64,000 nt of DNA from Butyrivibrio sp. NC3005 (GTDB taxonomy: Bacteria > Bacillota > Clostridia > Lachnospirales > Lachnospiraceae). The DNA is taken from positions 4,022 to 68,021 of the forward strand of contig NZ_KE384206.1 of NCBI RefSeq assembly GCF_000424545.1, read 5' to 3'. Each line of letters begins with the position of its first letter. Position 1 is the stretch's first letter. The position numbers and the translations under genes were made by a program. Shown piece after piece: positions 61,743 through 64,000 of this stretch. A model generated the notes under the pieces. That model ran no database searches, was not told where the DNA came from, and saw nothing but the letters and a program-made list of their open reading frames with translations.

Positions 61743-61798
61743 AATAGTTTTATGTAATGTTGTTAATAGGAAAAAGTTATAAAGGGATGGAGCCTAAT

Positions 61799-62341
61799 AT
61801 GGATCAAAAAATTAATATGTACACAAATAAGGGAATAGAAATTCTAATTGAAGCAGGTGATTACCAGCAGCTCAACGAAATCAGACAGTTTTTGTTTTCT
61901 GAAAACTGCAGATTGCAGGAAAAAGAGTCTTTGCTTGATGAACAGCTTGCAAAATTAGAAGAAGAGCGTAGGAACTTTCGCAGTCAGATGGATGAAATTG
62001 CTACAGAATTTGAGCGCAAGCAGGAGCAGTTAAGAAAAGACAGATTATTTTTTGACCAAAAAATGAAAATCTTAAAAGAAGGTTTTGACAAGCTCAACCA
62101 AGATAAGAAACAGCTTGAGCTTGAAAGAAGCTTTCTTGCAGAAGATCAGAGATATATGGATGAACAAGCTGCAGATGCTATAGATTTTTTCTTCAAAGGA
62201 GCTGATACCGAAGATGCTTTGAAGAAACGTTATCGTGACCTTATGAAAATTTTTCATCCGGACAACGAAAGCGGAGACTCTCAGCTTATGCAGATGATTA
62301 ATATTGAATATTCAAAGCTTTCAGGCTCGTACGTGGGATAA
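61799..62341 (+). CDS. Coiled-coil protein with a J-domain-like C-terminus
   Basis: 180 residues. Residues about 35-120 are a coiled coil (LQEKESLLDEQLAKLEEERR). The end (ALKKRYRDLMKIFHPDNESG) has the HPD of J-domains. Only the C-terminal helices of the J fold are seen, in the unusual order coil then J. It may act as a DnaK co-factor. GGATGGAG is placed for the ATG at 61799. Ended by a strong terminator. Confidence 0.65.
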   Translation: MDQKINMYTNKGIEILIEAGDYQQLNEIRQFLFSENCRLQEKESLLDEQLAKLEEERRNFRSQMDEIATEFERKQEQLRKDRLFFDQKMKILKEGFDKLNQDKKQLELERSFLAEDQRYMDEQAADAIDFFFKGADTEDALKKRYRDLMKIFHPDNESGDSQLMQMINIEYSKLSGSYVG

Positions 62342-62572: not shown

Positions 62573-62655
62573 ACTGAATGAATAATATGTTTTATTATTT
62601 ATTGCTATGATTTAAGAATAAGCTTATATAGAAAAATGTTGATTGAGGATAAGAT

Positions 62656-64000
62656 ATGAGTAATGTAGTTCAACATAATATGTCTGCCATAAATTCTCAA
62701 AGGCAATTGAAAATAACTACTGGAAATCAGGCTCAGTGCGCTGAAAAACTATCTTCTGGCTATAGAATTAATAAAGCAGCTGACGACGCTGCCGGGTTGG
62801 CAATTTCCGAAAAAATGAGAAGGCAAATTCGTGGACTTACTCAGGCAAGTTCAAACGCTAATGATGGTATTTCGTTTGTTAAAATTTCAGAAGGAGCATT
62901 AAATGAAGTTCATGATATGCTACAAAGAATGAATGAACTTGCAGTAAAAGCTGCTAATGATACTTTAACTGACAATGATAGAAGCTATATCCAGGAAGAA
63001 ATGGATGCTCTATGTGAAGAAATCAATCATTCGACTTCTCAGGCAAGATTTAATGAAATAGAATGTTTCCCGGAAACTGGTGAAGCGCCCAATTTCTCAA
63101 GGGTTGATGCAATTCTTTCAGCATACAATATAACTGTTGAATTTAACTACATTACAAGACAAGGCAATAAAGTCGACAGTGTCAGTGAAACAGTAGAAGG
63201 AGAAGCTACAGGGTATACCGGTGATAGGCAGACTATAGCTGAATATGTAACAGGTGTTGCCAAAGATGTTATGAGTAAACTTGCGACCAGGTATGATAGC
63301 CTTTTTTCGGTTGCAGCAACACAGGGAGTCAAAATTGGTCTGAATCTAACAAATGTTGATGGACAGGGTCAAACACTTGCAGTTGCAAAAATGCGTGTAG
63401 GAGAGTCGGCAGATGGTGCAGCAATAGAGTATCAGATGGCTGTAGATATGTCTGATTTTAATATCAATAATTATAATTCTGGTCAGCTTGCAACTACAGT
63501 TGCGCATGAAATGACTCATCTTATTATGTATGATATGGTAACTGGAGGTATGATGAATAATTTTCCTTCATGGTTTGTTGAAGGAATGGCACAGACTTCA
63601 AGTGGTGATGATGGATGGGTTACTTATCATTTAAATGAGAATTCCACTGATGCAGAAATTGCTTCATATCTGGCAAATGGAAGCTATAGAGATTATGGCG
63701 CAGGATATTTGGCTTCCATGTATCTTGGATATAAGGCAGGCGGAAACAATTTGTCTAACACTAGTATAGGTAATGGATTGGATGAAATTCTAACTTATAT
63801 AGCTAATAAGAGTAATTCCACTCCTGCAGAAGGAATCCAAACAAATCAGTCATCGCTAGGAGAAGCAATTGCGTCAAAAGTTGGATCTTATTCAAATGAG
63901 AGCGATTTTGCTGGTAGTTTTTTCAGCGGTGATACATCTGTTAATACCGAAAGATTTGATTTTATAAGAGATTTACTAAGAACACGAGGAACTAATGGAG
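62656..64000 (+). CDS. Proteolytic flagellin (flagellinolysin type), cut by the window edge
   Basis: 448 codons are visible without a stop. Residues 1-135 are a flagellin N-terminus (VQHNMSAINSQRQL, AEKLSSGYRINKAADDAAGL, LNEVHDMLQRMNELAVKAAN, QARFNEIECF). Instead of a plain D2/D3 domain, about 140-440 is a zinc metallopeptidase: His284-Glu285-x-x-His288 in AHEMTHLIMYD and Glu309 in WFVEGMAQ as third ligand, a gluzincin pattern close to the collagenase-like M9 fold. The flagellin C-terminus should follow beyond 64000. Flagellinolysins are filament subunits that cleave extracellular proteins. ATG at 62656 with GAGG upstream. Confidence 0.93.
   Translation, partial: MSNVVQHNMSAINSQRQLKITTGNQAQCAEKLSSGYRINKAADDAAGLAISEKMRRQIRGLTQASSNANDGISFVKISEGALNEVHDMLQRMNELAVKAANDTLTDNDRSYIQEEMDALCEEINHSTSQARFNEIECFPETGEAPNFSRVDAILSAYNITVEFNYITRQGNKVDSVSETVEGEATGYTGDRQTIAEYVTGVAKDVMSKLATRYDSLFSVAATQGVKIGLNLTNVDGQGQTLAVAKMRVGESADGAAIEYQMAVDMSDFNINNYNSGQLATTVAHEMTHLIMYDMVTGGMMNNFPSWFVEGMAQTSSGDDGWVTYHLNENSTDAEIASYLANGSYRDYGAGYLASMYLGYKAGGNNLSNTSIGNGLDEILTYIANKSNSTPAEGIQTNQSSLGEAIASKVGSYSNESDFAGSFFSGDTSVNTERFDFIRDLLRTRGTNG

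Follow-up and report, generated by a model that had tools for sequence, protein, structure and literature searches.

A divergent flagellinolysin-type flagellin of Butyrivibrio sp. NC3005 and relatives of its peptidase outside flagellins

A flagellin gene with a central insert

The DNA considered here, called the window, is a 64,000-nucleotide stretch of Butyrivibrio sp. NC3005 (NCBI RefSeq assembly GCF_000424545.1, contig NZ_KE384206.1, positions 4,022 to 68,021; G000:C1:4022-68021 in our numbering) from a 3.87-Mb draft genome, G000, of 93 contigs. Its right end holds the 5' part of a gene for a large flagellin with a peptidase-like insert (Table 1), whose frame is still open at the last letter of the window. 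An earlier note, made from the letters of this DNA, had described a flagellin with an embedded zinc metallopeptidase of the flagellinolysin type, the C-terminal part of which was to be looked for past position 64000. The frame was followed in the window's own genome (L008:4656-6623), which gave a protein of 655 residues ending in ...QSKQLVLQLLNS. It does carry a flagellin C-terminus, and an early stop after position 64000 is ruled out.

The overall layout is a flagellin N-terminus at residues 5-138, the peptidase insert at about 143-470, and a flagellin C-terminus at 568-653. Flagellin_N was aligned over profile positions 1-134 of 139 with 134.1 bits and Flagellin_C (PF00700) over 1-86 of 86 with 90.5 bits, both above the Pfam cut-off, and this coverage indicates that both D0/D1 ends are complete. 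In the predicted model the N-terminal helices span residues 2-34, 41-100, and 106-129. Solved flagellins align to the protein in two stretches, and the 50 rows shown by Foldseek for the full-length model were all flagellins or flagellar filaments. Compared with the 272-residue flagellin of the same genome, D0/D1 agree at 74% over the N part and 68% over the C part.

Other flagellin frames were also observed in this genome. A second large flagellin of about 590 residues (L010:7377-9152, on G000:C62) has an insert of ~360 residues without a Pfam match above the cut-off. Two partial frames at contig ends (L009:13071-13351 on C63 and L013:7308-7943 on C2) are perhaps a single gene split by assembly, within a tandem flagellin array.

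Table 1. Features of the peptidase flagellin gene and its upstream side, in window coordinates.
Feature	Position	Strand	Basis or remark
Upstream neighbour, coiled-coil protein with weak DnaJ-like end	61757..62341	+	DnaJ 21.7 bits, under the cut-off of 27.8; left border of the site
Possible sigma-28-like promoter, TCAA-N16-GTCGATAA	62545..62572	+	10/12 matches to the consensus
GAGGA, probable ribosome-binding site	62645..62649	+	Read from the sequence
Peptidase flagellin gene, 5' part	62656..64000	+	ATG at 62656; 448 of 655 codons inside; ends beyond the window at G000:C1:68644 (L008:6623)
Flagellin_N (PF00669), residues 5-138, D0/D1 helices	62668..63069	+	Pfam, predicted model
Gluzincin-type peptidase insert, from about residue 143 to ~470 beyond the window	63082..64000	+	NF033876, model, alignment A4
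HEMTH, residues 284-288; expected ligands His284 and His288, expected general base Glu285	63505..63519	+	Sequence; helix 277-294 of model
WFVEGMAQ, residues 306-313; expected third ligand Glu309, hydrophobic Ala312	63571..63594	+	Sequence; helix 305-316 of model

Catalytic motifs, homology and fold of the insert

The two motifs that had been pointed out behind the flagellin N-terminus are present as described, and both lie inside helices of the predicted model. Twenty residues separate His288 and Glu309, which is the proposed gluzincin-like spacing. His284, Glu285, and His288 are invariant across the 39 sequences of alignment A2, as are Trp306, Phe307, Glu309, Gly310, Ala312, and Gln313. An HExxH with the EGxA glutamate located 21-31 positions past its last histidine was found in 59/60 listed homologues, the exception (P0054, 460 residues) being listed with only a C-terminal flagellin domain. 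Since homologues keep both elements, a chance origin of the motif is excluded. In the Clostridium haemolyticum flagellinolysin FlaMP, FliA(H), Asp206 together with three backbone oxygens forms a calcium site beside the active site. Asp264 and Asp267 of the window's protein are near-invariant in alignment A1.

An insert of this kind could keep the peptidase fold as an outer domain with a structural or adhesive role, and no longer work as an enzyme. Non-enzyme outer domains are common among flagellins, and two flagellin peptidases, L059 and L091, have naturally lost one catalytic residue (HGLMH and HEMTS, respectively) and are possible non-catalytic forms. Every expected catalytic residue is, however, present in the window's protein, and the HExxH and second motif are kept in 97/100 of the flagellin-type relatives or pieces examined, even though identity to the window's domain falls to 27-43% in alignment A4. 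Such retention is hard to explain without catalysis, and we regard a non-enzymatic insert as very unlikely.

The NCBIfam flagellinolysin profile NF033876 was aligned to the whole protein over its full length (1-384) with 150.4 bits. This lies under the curated equivalog cut-off of 205 bits, which qualifies the flagellinolysin reading and therefore points to a divergent branch. The insert was also scanned separately to exclude a score contributed by the flagellin ends, and gave 118.5 bits (E 4.6e-34). NF033876 also matched every one of the 36 A4 members at E <= 0.001, including the non-flagellin proteins L020, L123, and L159, and the only other NCBIfam family found on the inserts was MXAN_6640, in 4 of the 36 (best E 5.2e-7). 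When A4 was compared by hhalign with canonical peptidases, namely three canonical flagellinolysins of the class that exceed the cut-off and one canonical-like sequence of the same family (L072), a probability of 99.4% was obtained over 218 columns. The search of the insert with profile models turned out positive for the flagellinolysin family and negative for the M9 family named for such a search in the earlier note, which Pfam detected neither in the protein (E <= 1) nor in the 36 A4 members (E <= 0.01). Between the flagellin ends Pfam gave nothing above its cut-offs; DUF1570 (17.7 bits, cut-off 22) and SprT-like (15.5 bits, cut-off 25.6) were sub-threshold candidates and were not used. A sequence search of the PDB with the domain profile returned nothing credible, with one row at E 0.33.

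The predicted model of the domain (predicted template modelling score, pTM, 0.85) has as its top structural matches the peptidase domains of clostridial collagenases, level with M1 aminopeptidases, and its fold is that of a collagenase-like gluzincin; Foldseek with this model gave no match at E <= 0.001. Identity to the M9 clostridial collagenases G, H, and T is 12-15% in the structural-match rows, and these enzymes carry accessory domains that the window's protein lacks. Similar to the window's protein, FliA(H) has flagellin ends around an HExxH...E gluzincin detected by NF033876, a collagenase-like fold, and E-G-x-A around the third ligand. The gap of 20 residues between last histidine and glutamate differs from the 24 of FliA(H), as counted by the residue numbering given in the available text of PMC5595980 and not from a sequence comparison, and from the 17 of the three canonical flagellinolysins.

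The score under the cut-off would also suit an insert acquired from a different gluzincin family, in an event separate from the origin of the published flagellinolysins; the similar architecture would then be convergent. In a peptidase tree of 59 rows the three canonical flagellinolysins form a separate group (100/100) on a long branch, and the apparent exchange of the peptidase with secreted proteins described below makes repeated capture plausible. On the other side, NF033876 stands far above the other NCBIfam families on the inserts, and the hhalign result with the canonical peptidases points the same way. An independent capture therefore appears unlikely to us. Architecture, the profile match on the insert alone, the comparison with known flagellinolysins, and the predicted fold support identification of the protein as a divergent flagellinolysin-type flagellin, a known kind in a distant Lachnospiraceae branch.

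Relatives of the peptidase in flagellins and in other proteins

The NF033876 cut-off was passed in 0/200 genomes of the same family and in 3/391 genomes of the class, all three from other families. Our domain profile A3 (E <= 1e-6) detected the peptidase in 22/397 family genomes and in 30/61 genus genomes, which are 60 to 100% complete; the own genome is included in both counts. In a phylum sample 10/398 genomes matched at E <= 1e-5, all except the own genome with at most 70 bits. A scan of named contigs gave at least 587 stretches, and relatives are encoded in at least 314; from these the 80 most similar to the window were retained. Most of their titles give Lachnospiraceae or one of its genera, some give Oscillospiraceae, Eubacterium, or unplaced Clostridia, and goat, sheep, or deer gut sites appear in 11 of them. 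In this similarity-ranked set, the profiles assign 79 to the flagellin type, with L123 as the single exception. Two same-genus genomes (G777 and G781) encode proteins identical to L085 and L087 on contigs labelled uncultured Butyrivibrio, which fits the rumen- or gut-type Clostridium relative assumed in the earlier note. In some giant flagellin frames, 1256 to 2463 residues long (L139, L121, L148, L127, and L114), this peptidase was also observed, close to the N-terminal flagellin region; a flagellin C part was not seen in L139.

The peptidase also occurs in proteins that have no flagellin domain by profile and start with a signal-like sequence. Such carriers were found in Lachnospiraceae (L020, L070, L071, L073, L074, L123, L206, L209-L215, and L217) and in another family of the class (L159); their signal-like starts and lipoboxes were assessed by eye. 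They share with the window's protein the peptidase profile, the HExxH, and the second motif type W[FY]xE[GS]x[AS], and differ from it in their other parts. L020 (genome G092), of 720 residues, combines the peptidase with a Pro/Thr linker and a type I dockerin (41.2 bits); its alignment with the window's protein covers 289 residues at 35% identity (E 6e-36). L123, from Velocimicrobium porci, has an InlB-type repeat (43.3 bits), and L213 and L260, of the window's genus, have a lipobox-like start suggesting a membrane-anchored form. A search with the L020 peptidase listed only flagellin-domain proteins among the best 120 of 199 matches (proteins 0.55-1.75x its length), which counts against a wide spread of the dockerin form. 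A search of G092 for a cohesin partner of the dockerin was negative at E <= 0.001. The genome of the window has, within ~2 kb (G000:C7:59698-61876), one cohesin match of 24.6 bits (cut-off 24.1) and one dockerin match of 28.1 (cut-off 22.9).

Within the genus, 11 of 29 classified loci are of the non-flagellin type, the majority with an acidic tail, and a few frames are truncated by contig ends (L257 and L261). Of the 61 genomes, 19 hold the flagellin form and 14 the non-flagellin form; 3 genomes are common to both counts, which leaves 16 and 11, respectively, with one form alone, and the other 31 have neither. Mutual exclusion of the two forms is not claimed, as by hand arithmetic about 4 genomes with both would be expected by chance.

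For the second peptidase tree, that of 59 rows, L072 and L021 were left out as long branches, ten further flagellin rows and seven same-genus flagellin loci were left out by thinning, and L216 and L218 were excluded because they lack the motif. A single clade of Lachnospiraceae-type flagellin peptidases was rejected (approximately unbiased test, p-AU 1e-4), and so was a single clade of the non-flagellin peptidases (p-AU 6e-5), which occupy four separate places. One of these is a clade of 13 rows; elsewhere L123 groups with three flagellins (100/99), L159 pairs with a single flagellin (99/95), and L020 falls inside the 13-row set of the window (100/99). Placing the 13-row non-flagellin clade as sister to all other Lachnospiraceae-type rows was allowed (p-AU 0.12), and a flagellin clade of the window without L020 was likewise allowed (p-AU 0.57) and even did a little better than the unconstrained tree. 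These tests therefore support movement between contexts and leave its direction unsupported.

A backbone tree was built from concatenated N- and C-terminal flagellin regions and has 80 rows, of which 36 bear the peptidase. On this tree the peptidase label must change 9 times, and strong branches force no fewer than 3 of these changes. Fifteen flagellins that carry the window's cassette clade, the window excluded, were rejected as one backbone clade (p 8e-4), a group that was picked after the peptidase tree had been seen. The window together with the 15 was also rejected (p 8e-4), which is uninformative on the window itself because the 15 alone are rejected. By backbone the window pairs weakly (82/49) with the peptidase flagellins of G812 and G829, a pairing that is rejected by peptidase (p 3e-8). 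Its backbone can, however, be placed either with 22 major flagellins of its own genus (p-AU 0.42) or with seven flagellins of the same cassette clade (p-AU 0.41); since both are allowed, the trees do not show that the gene in the window recently exchanged its cassette. Gene conversion among resident flagellins could be another source of the mismatch between backbone and peptidase.

The occurrence of one cassette clade on more than one flagellin backbone, together with the non-monophyly of the flagellin peptidases in these trees, suggests a mobile module. We give even chances to a cassette that has moved repeatedly, in rumen and gut Lachnospiraceae, between flagellins and secreted, lipoprotein-like, or dockerin-bearing proteins and between flagellin backbones, so that related bacteria would use one enzyme in filament-borne, cell-bound, or soluble form.

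Genomic site, proposed action and significance

The gene is flanked by the DnaJ-like coiled-coil gene on one side and, on the other, by a small frame and two further genes which we take to be ribosomal-protein-like, Asp23-like, and YloV-like. No flagellar genes were found near it in the stretch read. Two genomes, G812 and G829, share 83% identity with the window's genome over the YloV-like protein, the highest in the genus sample. In G812 the same neighbours lie ~700 bases apart, with the ribosomal-protein frame and no flagellin between them, vs ~2800 in the window's genome, and G829 has the same flagellin-free arrangement up to a contig end inside the DnaJ-like gene. Each of the two holds a peptidase flagellin at another place. 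In G735, G573, and G614 no DnaJ-like gene was detected next to Asp23, so that these genomes are uninformative on the site, and in G779, G780, and G788 the peptidase flagellin adjoins another flagellin.

Upstream of the start lies GAGGA, presumably the ribosome-binding motif. The possible sigma-28-like promoter is not clearly above chance, as scores of 10 or more were also obtained for 85/3000 random pieces of the window and 78/2000 shuffles of the same upstream stretch; at four other flagellin starts of this genome the best scores were lower, at 8 to 9 of 12. A doubtful promoter, the patchy presence of any form in the genus, and a site without the gene in two close species would agree with a silent or decaying gene that is unexpressed and without present function. 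In contrast, the frame of 655 codons is intact, the catalytic and filament residues are conserved, and GAGGA is present, so that we consider such a state extremely improbable.

The housekeeping neighbourhood differs from that in C. haemolyticum, where the gene lies in a flagellar cluster according to the available text of PMC7643111. The same text describes HgrFlaMP of Hylemonella gracilis, which by that description resembles the window's protein in architecture and in a gene placed among non-flagellar genes, and differs in coming from a Gram-negative organism and in having demonstrated activity. A protein of this kind could pass through the flagellar channel and work as a protease mainly in solution, either as a free monomer or after release of the insert, instead of within the filament; this possibility was named for flagellinolysins by Eckhard 2020 (PMC7643111, available text). 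Soluble action would suit an enzyme that also occurs in secreted-looking non-flagellin proteins, and the distance of the gene from flagellar genes agrees with it. The D0/D1 regions are, on the other hand, complete and well conserved at both ends, and we see a small chance for a mainly soluble role.

The explanation that we consider likely is that the protein is probably a minor flagellin that makes the filament surface a protease, as a flagellinolysin of a divergent Lachnospiraceae branch. The chain would be exported via the flagellar export channel, and its D0/D1 helices would co-assemble with the ordinary flagellins of the cell, while the central insert would fold as a gluzincin on the filament exterior. 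Zinc would be bound by His284, His288, and Glu309, and water activated by Glu285, and extracellular proteins nearby would be cleaved to yield peptides beside the cell. The peptidase would be one copy of a module also found in secreted-looking proteins. This model of export, assembly, and cleavage, like the proposed low abundance and the possible substrates, among them the dietary protein, host protein, or mucus suggested in the earlier note, is drawn by analogy with C. haemolyticum, whose relative is assembled into the filament and active (PMC5595980, available text).

Flagellinolysins have been known since 2017, and the divergent branch is a variant of that kind. The main text of PMC5595980, apart from its supplementary list, contains no mention of Lachnospiraceae, Butyrivibrio, Roseburia, or rumen, nor of secreted, non-flagellin, or dockerin forms, and the available text of PMC7643111 likewise none of dockerin, non-flagellin, or Lachnospiraceae forms. 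Flagellinolysins are merely cited or mentioned in the available parts of PMC6529551, PMC13269764, and PMC7018530. Among the papers listed by our literature searches, none describes non-flagellin relatives of the flagellinolysin peptidase, as judged from titles and abstract openings. What is new here is the same peptidase in non-flagellin, secreted-looking proteins, and its apparent mobility between filament and secreted proteins is the most interesting part.

With non-flagellin relatives available, one of them 35% identical and others encoded within the genus of the window, the origin of the fusion and its direction become testable. If true, the mobile cassette offers candidates for the source or the descendants of the flagellinolysin insert. 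The branch is large in gut and rumen bacteria and lies under the curated cut-off; it is therefore likely annotated simply as flagellin, the plain name that one relative (P0002) carries. Proteolysis on the filament may thus be more widespread in the gut than present annotation suggests.
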